Shown piece by piece: positions 3,218 through 10,645 of a DNA stretch of 64,000 nt (positions within the stretch are counted from its first letter, which is position 1; each line of letters begins with the position of its first letter). Below the pieces are notes generated by a model that searched no databases, was not told where the DNA came from, and was given only the letters and a program-made list of their open reading frames with translations. This DNA is from Fibrobacter succinogenes. Lineage in GTDB: Bacteria; Fibrobacterota; Fibrobacteria; Fibrobacterales; Fibrobacteraceae. A program made the translations under genes and the position numbers. The stretch lies in NCBI GenBank assembly GCA_902762305.1, contig CACWNW010000014.1:1-64000 (forward strand), read 5' to 3'.

Positions 3218-4000
3218 TCAGGTTTTAGACCTGAATATAAAAAAGAATGTCGAAAGCAGCAAGACCAACGTAAGGAAATAGAACACCAACGGGATCTTCG
3301 CCTTCAAGGCAATCTCGTTCAGGCTTTCTTGCTGGAAAAACTGTATGAGTTCCTCACCCGAAAGAATCGTCTCGTGGTCATCGAAGCGGTTCCATGCAAG
3401 CGAATGTTCTACGTTCTCGCTCAAGAGGTGCGAGATGCGCTGCGCAAGAGTATCGGGAACTTCGAGCCCCCGCGGAATTTCCACCGGGAAACCGAAGCGA
3501 GCAGAATCGAGGACCATCTGCAACGGATAGGCGATATTGCCCGGAAGGAACGCGGCCTCGGCATAGACCAAATCCCATTCATCCAACCACGCACGACGGA
3601 CAGACAGGTAACGACGAATGGCGGCAATCTTGCTCATCACGCGGCGTTCGAACTGGTTCACCGTATATGCGGGCGGTGCCTTTATCCCGTGAAGTCCATC
3701 CATTTCTTTCGAGAACGAAACCGCGACCTCCCGCAGGGACATCGTCTGCGAAACGACCTTCATGGAATCCTTCGCATAGCCGGCGCGGTAATTCGCCATA
3801 TAGCGCATGAGGTCCATTTCCATGAGCTGGTAATCCGACAGCGACTTGATATAGCGCGAATAGACAACTAGGTCGGGCTTCTGCGAAACGTAGAAAAGGG
3901 CGGTAAGCCCGAGCGTGAGCAGGATAATCAGCCAAACCCACGGAGTCTTGAGCTTCGCGTTGAAGGTGGCGGCAATTGTCCTGTTTTTATTTTCGTCCAC
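3218..4000 (-). CDS. two-pass membrane protein with helical periplasmic domain
   Basis: 260 residues: membrane helix near residues 20-40 (WVWLIILLTLGLTALFYVS), about 190 mostly helical residues predicted outside the cytoplasm, and a C-terminal membrane helix (IPLVFYFLTLVLLLSTFFFIF) ending in RSKT. No recognised family or catalytic motif. It is the first gene of the three-gene minus-strand unit and shares its topology with the next protein. Only 34 bp separate its start from the divergent lipoprotein gene at 4035, so both promoters must overlap there. Confidence 0.75.
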   Translation of the reverse strand: MDENKNRTIAATFNAKLKTPWVWLIILLTLGLTALFYVSQKPDLVVYSRYIKSLSDYQLMEMDLMRYMANYRAGYAKDSMKVVSQTMSLREVAVSFSKEMDGLHGIKAPPAYTVNQFERRVMSKIAAIRRYLSVRRAWLDEWDLVYAEAAFLPGNIAYPLQMVLDSARFGFPVEIPRGLEVPDTLAQRISHLLSENVEHSLAWNRFDDHETILSGEELIQFFQQESLNEIALKAKIPLVFYFLTLVLLLSTFFFIFRSKT

Positions 4001-4034
4001 ACGTAGAAATTACCTTTTTTCTACTTTGGTGGGT

Positions 4035-5477
4035 ATGAGACGCTCGTTTTTTTCGACATTTTTGACCTTTTTGCCGTTTTTGGGCATTTTTGCCGGCCTT
4101 GGCGCATGCACCATTGAACGCGCCGAGGAACAAATCATCGAAAAACACGTGAACGGCACAAAGAAAACCTCCGTGTGGGTGTACCCCGACGGCGAAATCC
4201 TCAAGCGCAACGAGTGGTACGACAACGGCATCAAGCAATTCGAAATCCAGTACAAGAACGGCGTACCGCATGGCAGCATCAAACGCTGGACCGTACTCGG
4301 CGACGTGGCACTTGACGGCGAATACAAGAACGGCAGGCGCGAAGGCAAGTGGACCAGCTACTTCGTAGAAAGGCTGAACTCCCGCCGCAAAGAATCCGTA
4401 CGCTACTACAAGGACGACCACCCCGTTGGCGACTGGGAAGGCTGGCATTTCAACGGGAACAAGGCTTTCGAGGAGCACTACGACGAAAACGGGAATGCAG
4501 TAGGCGTGTGGAAAAAGTGGCACGAGAATGGCGTGCTTGCCGAAGAAAACAGCAACTGTCACAACGAAGAAGAAACCGATTTTGACAAACTACAACCAAT
4601 ACCCGGATTCCTCAAACACTATAGTCGAGACTGCAAAATCCTTGAAGACTATGAATGCTTCATGGGCAAAAAACAAGGCAAGTACAAACTATACTATGAA
4701 TCGTATGGCACCCCAGATTCTTCTGCCGAAAACTGTAACAACGCCAAAATCCGCGAAGAGGGCCTCATAGACGATTTAGAATGCGGTTCCGATTTGTTCC
4801 CCACAGCACTCTATAGGGCGGATGGTTCTATCATAAAGAAAGTGGAGTACCATGCCGATGATTGCGGCTACTCCCCATCCCGAGTTTCATGGTTTGACGA
4901 GCACGGAAACCTACTCAGGGAAACGGTGTTTAAAAACCATACCCATTTCGGATGGGACGGTGTTGTCTACGGACTATGCGAAGGTTCATCTAACCTTTTC
5001 TGCGCAGAAACATCTAATGTTCAATACGCAAACCCTTACGGCAATCTAGATAGCAGCACATTGAGTCAAAAAGATGCTTTCAGCCAAAACATCGGCAAAC
5101 ACAAGGCTACAGTCCGTTACATAAAATCGGGACATAAATTACTTTATGAAGAATACTGGGATTTTAGCGACAATCCAGAATGGAAAGACAGTGGACCGAT
5201 TCTCCTTGTAACCCGCAGTTTTTATCCCGACAGCATGGGCGGCGGAATGGCAAGCGAAGGCTTTTGGGGAAACCCTTCCGTCGAAGGCGAATCCAAACGG
5301 CACGGCATCTGGCGCAACTGGTACCCGAACGGTGTACTGAAAGACAGCCTCAACTACGTGAACGGGGAACGCATCGGCGAACAATTCGGTTACGACAGCA
5401 CCGGAAAACTCACGATACACAAGACCGAAAACGGGAAGAACAAGCCGGTGATTATGCACCTGCCGGGGCAGAACTAG
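4035..5477 (+). CDS. YwqK/MORN-repeat lipoprotein
   Basis: 480 residues beginning with a lipoprotein signal (FLGIFAGLGAC, lipobox LGAC), so probably anchored in the outer membrane. The mature protein carries repeated YwqK/MORN-2 type units such as DGEILKRNEWYDNG, YKNGVPHGSIKRW, GDWEGWHFNGNKAFEEHY and GVWKKWHENGVLAEE. A cysteine-containing middle section separates them from a last set near residues 420-470. Such repeats form beta-hairpin stacks; their partners are unknown, and some homologues act as toxin-immunity proteins. I start at the ATG at 4035, not at the longer frame from 3915, because the signal peptide begins there and TCTACTTTGG, a promoter-like element, lies just upstream. Confidence 0.85.
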   Translation: MRRSFFSTFLTFLPFLGIFAGLGACTIERAEEQIIEKHVNGTKKTSVWVYPDGEILKRNEWYDNGIKQFEIQYKNGVPHGSIKRWTVLGDVALDGEYKNGRREGKWTSYFVERLNSRRKESVRYYKDDHPVGDWEGWHFNGNKAFEEHYDENGNAVGVWKKWHENGVLAEENSNCHNEEETDFDKLQPIPGFLKHYSRDCKILEDYECFMGKKQGKYKLYYESYGTPDSSAENCNNAKIREEGLIDDLECGSDLFPTALYRADGSIIKKVEYHADDCGYSPSRVSWFDEHGNLLRETVFKNHTHFGWDGVVYGLCEGSSNLFCAETSNVQYANPYGNLDSSTLSQKDAFSQNIGKHKATVRYIKSGHKLLYEEYWDFSDNPEWKDSGPILLVTRSFYPDSMGGGMASEGFWGNPSVEGESKRHGIWRNWYPNGVLKDSLNYVNGERIGEQFGYDSTGKLTIHKTENGKNKPVIMHLPGQN

Positions 5478-5498
5478 GAACAAGCTCCCAAAAGCGTT

Positions 5499-6326
5499 CT
5501 ACCCGTTCTTGGTAATTTCGTAAAGGTGTCTCCTGCAAATCCACGGCAGATTGAAGTCGCCCACCTTTCCGCTCTTCGACAACCTAGGCCCGCGCAAGCA
5601 AAGCTTCTCTAGGCAATCTTCACCGCACTTGTATGCAAAATAACGGGAAAAATCCTTGTCCGCGACGTTCCCGATAGCGCACCGTTCTATTTCAACCAAC
5701 CCCTGGCATGGATAAATATCGCCCTTGGCACTCATGTGCAGCTGGAGCCTGTTTTCGCAAGGCTGTACCGGATATTTTGGGGGACGCGCCAGCAATCCAA
5801 CAGAATGTTCCGGAAAAAAAGCGACCTCTTTGGTGTTCAATGTTTCTGATGCAAACACATTGATTCTGTCAAATATTTCAACTGTTCCCAAAAAGAGAAT
5901 TTCACAGTCGCAAGCAGCGCAAAGTTTCTTGACAACGTTCTCGATCGAACTCACGTACGGCAAGTCGCTCTCGGAAACATGGATACTGAGAAAACCTACC
6001 GAATATGCTTTCCTGATTTCATCCAGTTCCTGTTTGTGGAGAACAGCATCCCTCAAATTGACATGGACTTTCGATACAAAGTTACAGTTTTTTATGGTTT
6101 CTAGAATTTTTTTCGTCTTTTCAGGCACACAGAAAAGCTGTGTCGTGAACAGCTCGACAGCATTCATTCCGGCAGGGCTTTTCTCTTCAGGTAATTCCTT
6201 CACCCAACGAGCATAGCGCTTCAGCCACCCCGTTATTTTGCTTGACGAAATGGTAAAATCATTTCCGCTTTTATTGATTTCTAGATGCAGCGTTATGGAG
6301 CGAAACGGCAGATTAAAGCACTTCAT
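5499..6326 (-). CDS. SPASM-like partner protein lacking the radical SAM cysteine motif
   Basis: 275 residues with a C-terminal SPASM-like cysteine block: C190, then G202-x4-C207, C216, C234-x3-C238-x4-C243 and C264. Such blocks bind auxiliary iron-sulfur clusters in peptide-modifying radical SAM enzymes. The N-terminal two thirds keep the alternating strand/helix pattern of a radical SAM barrel (LHLEINKSGND, VSKVHVNLRD, GFLSIHVSESD), but there is no CxxxCxxC near the start, so it cannot bind the SAM-cleaving cluster in the usual way. It starts behind AAAGG at 6326, 23 bp after the upstream radical SAM gene, and is last in the cassette. Likely a degenerate enzyme acting as recognition or scaffold subunit. 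The function is inferred; homologues may instead be stand-alone. Confidence 0.75.
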   Translation of the reverse strand: MKCFNLPFRSITLHLEINKSGNDFTISSSKITGWLKRYARWVKELPEEKSPAGMNAVELFTTQLFCVPEKTKKILETIKNCNFVSKVHVNLRDAVLHKQELDEIRKAYSVGFLSIHVSESDLPYVSSIENVVKKLCAACDCEILFLGTVEIFDRINVFASETLNTKEVAFFPEHSVGLLARPPKYPVQPCENRLQLHMSAKGDIYPCQGLVEIERCAIGNVADKDFSRYFAYKCGEDCLEKLCLRGPRLSKSGKVGDFNLPWICRRHLYEITKNG

Positions 6327-6349
6327 TTGGAACCTTTAATATTCGTTTT

Positions 6350-7345
6350 TTAGATATCATGACGACTTATGTACGCCCTAACGGAATCAATATTCTCTTT
6401 TTTCGAAAACACCTGTGCGCAGATTTTACATGGCGACATGTGCTTTCCCCGATATTCAATACCGCATTCCTTAAAGATTGGGAAAAAGGATTTTATACCC
6501 AGGAAAGCAATTCTTCTCAAAATGACATCCCTGTTCATCCTTTTTAATATAGACGCAAGGCTTTCATTGTAAATATTTCCATTGACATACTCATCGCATT
6601 GGTCAAGCCCTGCGCAACAGGGCGCAACGAAACCTTTTGAACTTACAGTCACATTAAAATTATTTTCACAAACGGCACTCATCCCACACGGCGGATTATA
6701 TAAATCATTTTCATCCAAAAGTTTCGTAGCCCGTCCGACAGCAGCAACCTGACAGCAAGAAATCTTACCTGCCAGTTTTACCGCATCTGGATCAAGGAGA
6801 TCCATGACTTCTTTCATCTGATGGCTTTTGGTCGTAAGCAACCGAAGGTTGGTCGCGATTTCATTCTCGTAACAGGCGCGAAGGCAATTGTTAATGGTCT
6901 CGGGACTAACAAACTGGTAATGCCAATAATCCCAAGATATTTCCATGTGGGTGAGGCCACTCTTACGGATTTCCTCACAGACGCGCCGTGCATTGTCTAG
7001 CTTCTGACTCCAGAAGGCGTTCGTCGTACAGGATATTACTTTAAAGCCCGCCTTTTTCGCACAAGCAAACAACTCCTTGCAGTCATCCTTGTAGATGAAG
7101 GATTCTCCCCCAGCCAAATGGAATCTCTTTGCGATAGAATCTTGTTTTGCCGCCTCACGGATGCATCTTTTCGCGACATCCATGTCCAATTTATCGCCTT
7201 TACCGTATTCTCCCGCGGACAGATAGCACATAGCGCATTTCGCTGTGCAGCGGTTGGTATTTTCCATCACAAGGCAGTCATAATGAAAATCTTTAGTCCT
7301 ATACTGGAACTGCTGATACGGGTTATATTCATTTGATTGAGTCAT
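6350..7345 (-). CDS. radical SAM/SPASM peptide-modifying enzyme (candidate)
   Basis: 331 residues from the ATG at 7345. The radical SAM motif is present as NRCTAKCAMCYL (C33-x3-C37-x2-C40), followed by a GGE motif (GGESFIY, residues 79-81). The C-terminal region has a SPASM-type cysteine set (C220, C226, GFVAPCC at 243-244, C250, C294, C306, C309) that would hold auxiliary clusters. Such enzymes cross-link, epimerise or otherwise alter peptides, using SAM-derived radicals in the cytoplasm. A longer frame reaches 7381, but its start falls inside the terminator hairpin of the upstream gene, so I reject it. The gene sits directly after a small precursor-like gene and before a cluster-binding partner. 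Family membership is clear; peptide substrate and chemistry are inferred. Confidence 0.88.
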   Translation of the reverse strand: MTQSNEYNPYQQFQYRTKDFHYDCLVMENTNRCTAKCAMCYLSAGEYGKGDKLDMDVAKRCIREAAKQDSIAKRFHLAGGESFIYKDDCKELFACAKKAGFKVISCTTNAFWSQKLDNARRVCEEIRKSGLTHMEISWDYWHYQFVSPETINNCLRACYENEIATNLRLLTTKSHQMKEVMDLLDPDAVKLAGKISCCQVAAVGRATKLLDENDLYNPPCGMSAVCENNFNVTVSSKGFVAPCCAGLDQCDEYVNGNIYNESLASILKRMNRDVILRRIAFLGIKSFFPIFKECGIEYRGKHMSPCKICAQVFSKKENIDSVRAYISRHDI

Positions 7346-7357
7346 ACAACACTTCAA

Positions 7358-7385
7358 TAAAAACGGCGGTGGGAAACCCACCGCC
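7358..7385 (-). terminator. terminator between precursor-like gene and radical SAM gene
   Basis: Minus-strand hairpin with a perfect 9-bp stem GGCGGTGGG/CCCACCGCC, TTT loop and GTTTTTA tail. It lies 32 bp past the precursor stop and 12 bp before the radical SAM start. Partial read-through would give more precursor than enzyme, as is common in RiPP clusters. Confidence 0.88.
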
Positions 7386-7416
7386 TTGGTTTCAACATTA
7401 ACCTAACAAAGGCGGG

Positions 7417-7779
7417 TTAAATGCGAATGTCCCTTCTGCAGCCCGGAGTCGGACGCTTAGGAATCGGCGGATTGACAACAACAATAATAATGATAATGTC
7501 GGCAAGTCGCTTAGCAACAGATTCCGTAAGCTGAGCCTTGAAAGCCTTGTCGAGCTTTTTGGTAGCGACAGCATTCTTGATCTGAGTAGTGAAAGCCGGA
7601 GTCAGATCGATGCCCTTCTTCTTGGCAAACGTAGCCGGGTTCTTCTGGAACGCAGCGACATCGTCATCCGTCTTGATTGCAGCAATGAGAGCGCTCGCCT
7701 GAGCGTTAGCAATTGCATTGTTCTTCTTTTGGATCGTTGCAGCAAATTTTGCAGTAGCATCGATTTTTTTTACAGCCAT
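7417..7779 (-). CDS. RiPP precursor-like protein with Ile5-Val3 core
   Basis: 120 residues, first gene of the cassette, behind an excellent ribosome site (AAGGAG, 7 bp before ATG). Residues 1-93 are Ala/Lys-rich and helical, and include DDDVAAFQKNPATFAKKKG, which by eye resembles the conserved segment of nitrile-hydratase-like or Nif11-like leader peptides. Residues 94-120 differ sharply: D-IIIII-VVV-N, then PPIPKRPTPG, a single C114, and a basic end RRDIRI. An acidic/helical leader followed by a short hydrophobic, proline-rich tail next to a radical SAM/SPASM gene is the usual layout of a ribosomally made, modified peptide. No protease or exporter is nearby, so processing is unknown. It could also be an ordinary small helical protein. 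Only the gene call is firm. Confidence 0.8.
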   Translation of the reverse strand: MAVKKIDATAKFAATIQKKNNAIANAQASALIAAIKTDDDVAAFQKNPATFAKKKGIDLTPAFTTQIKNAVATKKLDKAFKAQLTESVAKRLADIIIIIVVVNPPIPKRPTPGCRRDIRI

Positions 7780-8148
7780 TTTGGACTCCTTATATTAAGA
7801 AAAGTTTTTCGTAATATAAAATAAATTTCCAACAAGCGAACGTTTTTTCTACAAAATAATCACATGTAAAAAAGAAATTACCTCAATTCCCTTGTGTGTA
7901 ATACAAACAGCACACAACGTATTGTTTTTACTAATGAATTATTTTGAAATTTCGCTCCTTTCCAAACTCTGAATCAAAACCGAATTTCATTTTTTTGCGA
8001 AATTCAAGAAAAAACACCTCCTTTTTGGGGATAGAAGCAGGATTATGGCACGGAATTCACTACTCGAAAGGGGTTTCCCAAAATCAACAGCAAGCAGGTT
8101 AAATATCTTTGGGGAAACAGCGAATTATGTGGAGCAAAAGACCTGAAT
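7780..8148. other. AT-rich intergenic region between divergent units
   Basis: About 370 bp with no credible gene on either strand. The minus-strand part next to 7779 should hold the promoter of the precursor gene (TATATT at about 7815-7820 is a weak -10 candidate). The part next to 8149 has GGAG about 14 bp before the plus-strand gene. No repeat of the classes seen elsewhere in the window was found. Confidence 0.5.
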
Positions 8149-8694
8149 ATGAGGCGCAAGGATAGAGAAGTTTTAGGCGACGAGAATATCGCAAAGATTA
8201 TCGAGCAGTGCACGACCTGCCATGTCGCGATGGTGGACGATGCGGATGCGGGTATGCCCTACGTGATTCCGCTGTCATTCGGGTACAGCCTCTCGGGCGG
8301 CGTCCTGGAGCTGTACTTCCACTGCGCGCACGCAGGCAAGAAACTCGATTGCATCCGCAAGAATCCGAACGTGGCGTTCAGCATGTGCGTCGAGAACCGC
8401 ATCGAGATCCACGAAGACGTTTATTGCAAGAGCGGGCGCTTTTACGCAAGCGTCGTCGGGCAGGGCAAGGCCGAAATCGTCGAGGATAGCGCCGAGAAAT
8501 GCCGCGGGCTCTCGCTCCTGATGGAACGGCAGGCCGCTGGCGCCGCGCACGGTTCAAGTTCCGCGCAACCTATGCACGCGGCCCCGCACAAGTTCGAATT
8601 CACGCCCGCGCAGGCCGCCGCCGTGACCGTGTTCAAGATAACAAGCACGTGTTTTACAGGGAAAGCGAAAAACGATTATGCTCAAAAGTGTTAG
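8149..8694 (+). CDS. pyridoxamine 5'-phosphate oxidase family protein (NimA-like)
   Basis: 181 residues of the flavin-binding split-barrel family that includes NimA-type nitroimidazole reductases. It opens with MRRKDREVLGDENIAKII, the usual start of this subgroup. Then come the strands CHVAMVDDADAGMPYVIPLSFGY and LELYFHCAHAGKKLDCIRKNPNVAFSM, where the H-x-A-x-x-GKK segment is the flavin-phosphate region. The insert AAGAAHGSSSAQPMHAAPHKF near residue 130 is looser than in relatives. It probably binds FMN and reduces small molecules or senses redox state. Its 3' end overlaps the start of the next gene by 17 bp, so the two are likely translated together. The true substrate is unknown. Confidence 0.85.
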   Translation: MRRKDREVLGDENIAKIIEQCTTCHVAMVDDADAGMPYVIPLSFGYSLSGGVLELYFHCAHAGKKLDCIRKNPNVAFSMCVENRIEIHEDVYCKSGRFYASVVGQGKAEIVEDSAEKCRGLSLLMERQAAGAAHGSSSAQPMHAAPHKFEFTPAQAAAVTVFKITSTCFTGKAKNDYAQKC

Positions 8695-9680: not shown

Positions 9681-9688
9681 TACATTTG
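9681..9688 (+). promoter_or_regulatory. TAnnTTTG-type promoter element before pheS
   Basis: TACATTTG, inside AAATTTCTACATTTGTG, lies 8 bp before the pheS ATG and no ribosome site is present. The same string, with one change, precedes menG on the other strand (CAAATTTA at 45737-45744). It matches the known Bacteroidetes -7 consensus, and would give a nearly leaderless message. Confidence 0.5.
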
Positions 9689-9696
9689 TGGCCACT

Positions 9697-10645
9697 ATGA
9701 GTGAAGCTATTAACAATGTGAAGCAGGCGTTTGACGCAGAACTTGCGCAAACCGACCTTACGAACCAAGAAGCCGTCAACAACCTCCGCGTGAAGTACCT
9801 GGGCAAGAAGGGTGCCGTGACCGACCTCATGAAGCAGATGGGCACGCTCAGCGCCGAGGAACGTCCGGCTTACGGCGCTCCAGAAGAAGCTGGAAAGCGG
9901 CTTTGTAGATACGACGCTCCCGGGCGCAGGGATTCCCGCCGGCAGCACGCATCCGCTCTACGACGTGCGTGAAGAGATTATCGACTTCTTCAGCCAGATG
10001 GGTTTCGAGGTGGACTTCGGTCGCGACATCGAGACGGACTGGTACAACTTCGAAGCCTTGAATACGCCGCCCGATCACCCGAGCCGCGACATGCAGGATA
10101 CGTTCTACGTGGACGACAAGGTGATGTTGCGTACGCACACTTCCGGCACGCAGATCCACTACATGGAAACGCACAAGCCGCCGTTCCGCATGATTGCTCC
10201 GGGCCACGTGTTCCGCGTTGACAACGATGCGACCCACGCCCCGATGTTCCAGCAGTGCGAAGGCCTCGTGGTCGATGAAAACATCAGCTTTGCAGACCTC
10301 AAGGGTGTGCTGCAGGTGTTCATGAACAAGCTGTTCGGCGAAGGCGTCAAGACGCGTTTCCGCCCGAGCTTCTTCCCGTTCACGGAGCCGTCTGCCGAAA
10401 TGGACGTGAGCTGCGTGTTCTGCGGTGGCAAGGGTTGCCGCCGTTGCAAGGGCACGGGCTGGATGGAAATCGGCGGTTGCGGTTCTGTGGACCCGAACGT
10501 GTTCAAGAACTGCGGCATCGATTCCGAGAAGTACACGGGCTTTGCATTCGGCTTCGGCCTCGACCGTATCGCGATGTTGCGTCACGCGATTCCGGAAATC
10601 GGTTTGCTGACGAGCAACGACCAGAGATTCCTGAGCCAGTTCTAG
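9697..10645 (+). pseudogene. pheS: phenylalanine-tRNA ligase alpha subunit, frame broken near 9875
   Basis: The N-terminal coiled-coil part ([24 protein letters not shown], then EERPAYG) reads from 9697. The catalytic domain ([18 protein letters not shown] to NDQRFLSQF) reads in another frame. In that second frame coding begins about 9875 with [17 protein letters not shown]. Compared with E. coli PheS, roughly 24 residues of the linking helix between these parts are missing, so a loss of 3n+1 or 3n+2 bases shifts the frame. Class II motifs are intact (FRPSFFPFTEPSAE, GFAFGFGLDRIAML). A Cys-rich insert CVFCGGKGCRRCKGTGW, found in many bacterial PheS, may bind zinc. The protein forms the a2b2 enzyme charging tRNA-Phe and is essential, so the break is more likely an assembly error than a real mutation. 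No pheT is next to it. Confidence 0.85.

Follow-up and report, generated by a model that had tools for sequence, protein, structure and literature searches.

Within a window of 64,000 nucleotides (the whole stretch of Fibrobacter succinogenes DNA analysed here, contig CACWNW010000014.1), this rumen Fibrobacter carries three tandem genes on the minus strand, transcribed in the order precursor peptide, radical S-adenosylmethionine (SAM) enzyme and SPASM-like third protein. The first open reading frame (ORF; 7417..7779), which has an AAGGAG ribosome site just upstream, encodes a peptide of 120 aa. The second (6350..7345) encodes an EpeE/YydG-like radical SAM enzyme of 331 aa when read from the ATG at 7345, the likelier start of a frame that is open to a GTG at 7381, and the third (5499..6326) encodes a protein of 275 aa with an EpeE-like fold and no SAM-cluster cysteines. 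The initial annotation had described a minus-strand trio between plus-strand flanks, with CxxxCxxC, GGE and SPASM cysteines and a third protein lacking the radical SAM cysteines, and all of this was borne out. The same trio in the same order, for which it had proposed to look elsewhere, is present in seven other Fibrobacter genomes, the trio recurs in five further phyla, and all three genes are under purifying selection (ratios of nonsynonymous to synonymous divergence, dN/dS, of 0.07-0.41); chance ORFs are ruled out by this conservation across genomes and by the dN/dS values.

The enzyme contains the motifs CTAKCAMC and GGE as well as SPASM-like cysteines, and matches the Pfam models Radical_SAM (5e-12) and SPASM (3e-4) and the YydG epimerase model TIGR04078 (100 bits, E 1.3e-28). 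It also matches the EpeE structures PDB 8ai1-8ai6 over nearly its full length (8ai1, E 4.9e-17), and its predicted structure (predicted local distance difference test, pLDDT, 82.8) superposes on EpeE with a Z of 25.6 and a root-mean-square deviation (rmsd) of 2.9 over 298 residues, with ~20% of the structurally aligned residues identical, the next fold reaching a Z of 18.1. With residues counted from the codon at 7342, C32, C36 and C39 correspond to the SAM cluster, C225, C242, C305 and C308 to the auxiliary-cluster positions, and C243 aligns with the hydrogen-donor Cys223 of EpeE, the residue mutated in PDB 8ai3 and 8ai4. For EpeE, replacement of that Cys by Ala is reported to result in peptide cleavage. 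All eight functional cysteines of EpeE are invariant in the 22 radical SAM rows aligned (22/22). The enzyme is a relative of EpeE/YydG, and its chemistry is probably of a known type, but by sequence it is not an equivalog. As EpeE takes the Calpha hydrogen from Val and Ile, with Cys223 as the proposed hydrogen donor (PMC8326336), this homology predicts that the enzyme should epimerise an Ile/Val run in its substrate, and sequence and model together make Calpha epimerisation of Ile and Val its probable activity.

The third protein has SPASM-like cysteines only (Pfam SPASM, E 0.18), reaches the cut-off of no Pfam or NCBIfam family, and has a Tropicibacter homologue annotated as "hypothetical protein". 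EpeE is the best PDB match of its predicted structure (pLDDT 79.7, predicted template modelling score 0.80), with a Foldseek value of 3e-5 and a Z of 14.7 (rmsd 3.8, 255 residues, 15% identity), followed by PqqE as the next fold family (Z 12.8), and a profile-profile comparison with the enzyme using hhalign gave 96% (E 4e-9). The CxxxCxxC motif is absent from this protein and its homologues, which rules out a second active radical SAM enzyme, and not one of six aligned partner sequences has the hydrogen-donor Cys, its position being occupied by Q, L, M, I or E. Homology and modelled fold mark this protein as a pseudo-enzyme, a degenerate epimerase paralogue. Its best conserved part, over six phyla, is a set of three Cys and one His (C190, C207, C264 and H267, invariant in 14 sequences), likely a metal-cluster (Fe-S) site. 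The alignment register of the last ligands is uncertain, as MAFFT places C264 on enzyme C308 and P261 on C305 and the CxxC spacing would instead pair C264/H267 with enzyme C305/C308, and what we claim for the partner is limited to the invariance of the three Cys and one His.

The precursor gene is present in a single copy in its own genome. Residues ~1-93 of the peptide form a leader weakly resembling those of the nitrile hydratase-like leader peptide (NHLP) clan and residues 94-120 the core and tail, the C-terminal end reading ...ADIIIIIVVVNPPIPKRPTPGCRRDIRI. The window precursor weakly matches the NHLP-clan model NF038399 (Os1348; E 0.001), which is matched by nine of 13 precursor homologues at E <=0.05 (best 3e-7), none of them above the curated 40-bit cut-off. 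The core reads Ile5-Val3-Asn-Pro-Pro, and its Ile5-Val3 stretch (DIIIIIVVVNPPIP..., 7474..7497, minus strand) contains the predicted epimerisation sites. In four close strains the cores are Ile5Val3, Ile5Val2, Ile5Val2 and Ile6Val1, followed by NPPIP and by tails that change; variable columns number 10/92 in the leader versus 10/29 in the core (p 0.007), and among these strains the leader is kept while the core varies. Precursors of other phyla have Ala/Val-rich cores, such as AVAAGAAVVAAAAAVV in Paenibacillus, of which close variants occur in Acidobacteria and Tropicibacter, so that the Ile5-Val3 core is one branch of a wider family. These Ala/Val-rich cores recall that of polytheonamide.

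The association between the enzyme and the third protein is strict. This enzyme clade was found in eight of 111 genomes of the family, and every precursor homologue found adjoins the radical SAM gene, none lying away from it, the situation that the initial annotation had named as a counter-indication; the homologues were retrieved through that very gene, so that this adjacency is not an independent test. An independent one was provided by searching 168 genomes of the phylum with the third protein alone, which returned exactly the same eight genomes and none of the 160 others. In the genome contig collection the partner lies beside 14/14 enzyme loci, six of which are from Fibrobacter or a near-identical contig, and it also lies beside the enzyme on a Tropicibacter plasmid. 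Counting each once, 17 distinct loci were checked, all with the partner next to this epimerase clade, from Fibrobacterota, Bacillota, Bacteroidota, Elusimicrobiota, Acidobacteriota and Pseudomonadota. The arrangement varies, the partner being on the other strand in locus L045 and the precursor in L048. The divergence of the enzyme is mirrored by that of the partner (Spearman 0.87 between their identities), and the partner-bearing enzymes form one clade (support 99/98, from a tree computed without the partners and with EpeE on a long branch), apart from EpeE and from a partner-less second Fibrobacter family. Scans with the third protein of 1,041 genomes around Paenibacillus, Roseibium, Acidobacteria and Sphingobacterium gave only two further carriers, with carrier rates of 2/396, 2/87, 3/257 and 1/301 genomes; the cassette is therefore rare and patchy. 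Some clusters elsewhere are larger and include peptidases of the M23 or trypsin-like type or another radical SAM enzyme. An APH-like kinase is added in L039, the Paenibacillus J5C2022 set with an Ala/Val-rich core, in L059 and, by sequence, also in L038 and L048, which indicates that the window holds the minimal set.

Between the precursor and enzyme genes lies a terminator-like hairpin (GGCGGTGGG-TTT-CCCACCGCC followed by the T run GTTTTTATT; 7365..7385, minus strand), identical in the sibling strains L019-L021 and replaced at this position in L022 by another GC-rich hairpin. Being kept or replaced at the same place in four siblings, it fits a partial terminator that may keep the precursor in excess over the enzyme. 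The flanking plus-strand genes, identified by domain search, encode a MORN-repeat protein (3915-5477) and a PNPOx-like protein (8149-8694). In the related genome G020 the two flanking genes are directly adjacent, with the stop of the MORN gene overlapping the PNPOx start, and the interval 5468..8145 between the flanks is missing, which makes it a clean insertion in the window; neither terminal inverted repeats nor a target duplication were found at the insertion. In more distant Fibrobacter carriers the cassette sits in other surroundings.

Several further observations were made on these genomes. Divergence within 5499-7779 is a mosaic: the synonymous divergence (dS) of the enzyme gene is 0.04 to L019 versus 0.35 to L020, and the precursor and partner genes are near to both (dS 0.07-0.12), a pattern that suggests between-strain recombination inside the cassette. 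Further along the window, comparison with L019 and L020 shows that pheS (phenylalanyl-tRNA synthetase alpha, 9688-10645) has lost ~70 bases near 9876, which breaks the gene, and the L020 copy has a separate gap further on; because pheS is essential, the break in the window is probably an assembly error. Outside the window, the same genome encodes another, distantly related YydG-like radical SAM enzyme (G000:C14:95968-96909; L031, L074). Its gene comes after one for a protein of 240 aa that contains an extended Pro/Ile-rich run (IPIRPIIPVRNPIIPIIDPIIPII...) and may be a precursor of the repeat type. Other Fibrobacter genomes have comparable pairs, the one in L028 following a DeaD-type helicase gene. 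On the Tropicibacter oceani plasmid (L059, 6274-13578), precursor, epimerase and partner are accompanied by an APH-like phosphotransferase, a 540-aa second radical SAM/SPASM protein and trypsin-like and M23 peptidases, an extended cluster that may illustrate how the leader is removed and the peptide modified further. The contig of L041 (CACYDZ010000343.1), titled as a Ruminococcus metagenome-assembled genome, is probably mis-binned Fibrobacter DNA, as its cassette is almost identical to that of Fibrobacter G085 (L024).

Taking together the gene order, the homology, the conserved catalytic residues, the model folds and the strict pairing observed, we infer with fair confidence a cassette for a ribosomally synthesised and post-translationally modified peptide (RiPP), in which an EpeE-type enzyme and a pseudo-enzyme act as a pair that epimerises several Calpha centres, yielding a hydrophobic peptide of D- and L-residues. 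That the locus makes a RiPP had been proposed in the initial annotation, and is supported by the RiPP-type leader, the variable core, the dedicated maturase and the persistence of the trio across genomes and species. As to reaction and sites, SAM would be cleaved on the CxxxCxxC cluster of the enzyme, the 5'-deoxyadenosyl radical would remove the Calpha hydrogen from Ile or Val of the core, and Cys243 would return a hydrogen from the opposite face, converting L to D, probably at several core sites. The partner most likely forms a heteromeric complex with the epimerase, in which it could hold and present the precursor, or supply electrons or hydrogen that return the enzyme or its catalytic thiol to the reduced state from one turnover to the next, or both; conservation of the Cys3/His set speaks for a redox part. 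The mature peptide would contain D-residues and be membrane-active. Certain points weigh against this interpretation. The score of the enzyme is far under the TIGR04078 equivalog cut-off of 300 bits, which makes another outcome of the radical chemistry possible, and Asp210 of EpeE is not conserved here. The core of L022 is Pro/Ile/Lys-rich rather than an Ile/Val run, the relatives L024, L025 and L041 are without a comparable Ile/Val/Ala run, and no protease, exporter or immunity gene was found within the cassette.

One alternative concerns the partner, which may serve only as a leader-binding element in place of a RiPP recognition element (RRE), with a purely structural Cys/His site. Proteusin epimerases have their RRE at the C-terminus, binding by a separate protein is also a known arrangement (PqqD; PMC8326336), and no RRE model matched our enzyme in Pfam and NCBIfam searches; we give this idea appreciable weight, short of an even chance, since the Cys3/His set is conserved beyond what leader docking needs and the partner fold is EpeE-like. 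A different proposal is that the enzyme performs other radical chemistry on aliphatic side chains, for example formation of cyclopropylglycine from Val, the reaction that the radical SAM/SPASM enzyme TvgB carries out on the repeated Val residues of its TVGG repeats (PMC9062424), or of a C-C or thioether crosslink. The low TIGR04078 score would allow this, which we nevertheless find unlikely, as EpeE is by a wide margin the closest solved relative in both sequence and fold and its hydrogen-donor Cys is invariant; moreover, the core region of the window precursor has one Cys, outside the Ile/Val run, which makes sactipeptide or ranthipeptide chemistry, with its need for several core cysteines to form thioethers, unlikely, and both classes were rejected. 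It is similarly doubtful that the third protein is a separate accessory, such as one that confers immunity or serves a different step as a redox protein, rather than a working partner. It is less conserved than the enzyme, and clusters elsewhere do carry accessory genes (kinase, peptidases, second radical SAM), but the third gene is the sole accessory present in all loci, and its product is homologous to the enzyme and co-diverges with it. An ordinary epipeptide (EpeX/YydF) cluster, which an EpeE-type enzyme might evoke, is very improbable and, as so stated, ruled out by gene content, given a 120-aa precursor with an NHLP-like leader, an extra partner gene and no EpeP, EpeA or EpeB gene adjacent in the window or its siblings.

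The paired epimeriser that we favour can be extended, tentatively and with odds that we regard as slim, to a two-subunit iterative epimerase, in which the Cys3/His Fe-S site of the partner would reset the catalytic Cys or feed electrons, enabling alternating D/L runs of Ile, Val and Ala that fold into beta-helical membrane peptides like gramicidin or polytheonamide. If true, such peptides would be reached by one more route, which evolved separately and is common to at least six phyla. How the hydrogen-donor cysteine of radical SAM epimerases is regenerated has been stated to be unknown (PMC8326336), and an epimerase always paired with a dead copy that keeps a possible Fe-S site offers a genetic handle on this question. 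The cassette also draws attention to a family of probable D-residue peptides that spans several phyla and is unexplored.

The suggestion that the locus matches no known class stands only in part. The maturase is a relative of EpeE/YydG, and by homology the chemistry is of a known kind; what appears new, judging from the sequence libraries searched and open-licence papers, is the combination of an EpeE-type epimerase, an NHLP-like leader and a conserved pseudo-epimerase. No description of this gene trio was found in open-licence PMC papers, and a 2014 survey of anaerobes, which included one Fibrobacteres genome, lists no RiPP cluster of known class for that genome.

The cassette appears to join two known RiPP worlds, those of EpeE-type enzymes and NHLP-type leaders. 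With EpeX/EpeE (YydF/YydG) of Bacillus subtilis it shares the radical SAM family, the radical SAM and auxiliary-cluster cysteines, the hydrogen-donor Cys and, by prediction, Val/Ile targets. By contrast, the epipeptide system has a secreted-type precursor with a leader of 32 residues (PMC8326336). Pseudo-SAM/SPASM proteins such as TIGR04347, judging by model names, share with the third protein a radical SAM fold without the cluster motif, and HxsB/HxsC-type radical SAM proteins resemble the set in being encoded as a pair. None of these models matches the third protein above cut-off, however, and its nearest fold is EpeE. In epeXEPAB a membrane protease and an ABC transporter lie beside the epimerase, and we know of no pseudo-epimerase partner in the Bacillus system. 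The TvgB poly-cyclopropylglycine system resembles the activity proposed for the cassette in that a radical SAM/SPASM enzyme acts many times on a Val-rich core, and differs from the cassette in its TVGG repeats, its different chemistry and the lack of such a partner (PMC9062424). Proteusins such as polytheonamide and landornamide have NHLP-type leaders, which the leader here may resemble, and share the Val/Ala-rich cores seen in the wider family and the repeated epimerisation expected here, but their PoyD/OspD-type epimerases belong to a different type that has an RRE and shows no significant homology to the EpeE type (PMC8326336), whereas the cassette enzyme is EpeE-type (TIGR04078) and has a partner protein; enzyme type and gene content thus rule out an ordinary proteusin cluster.
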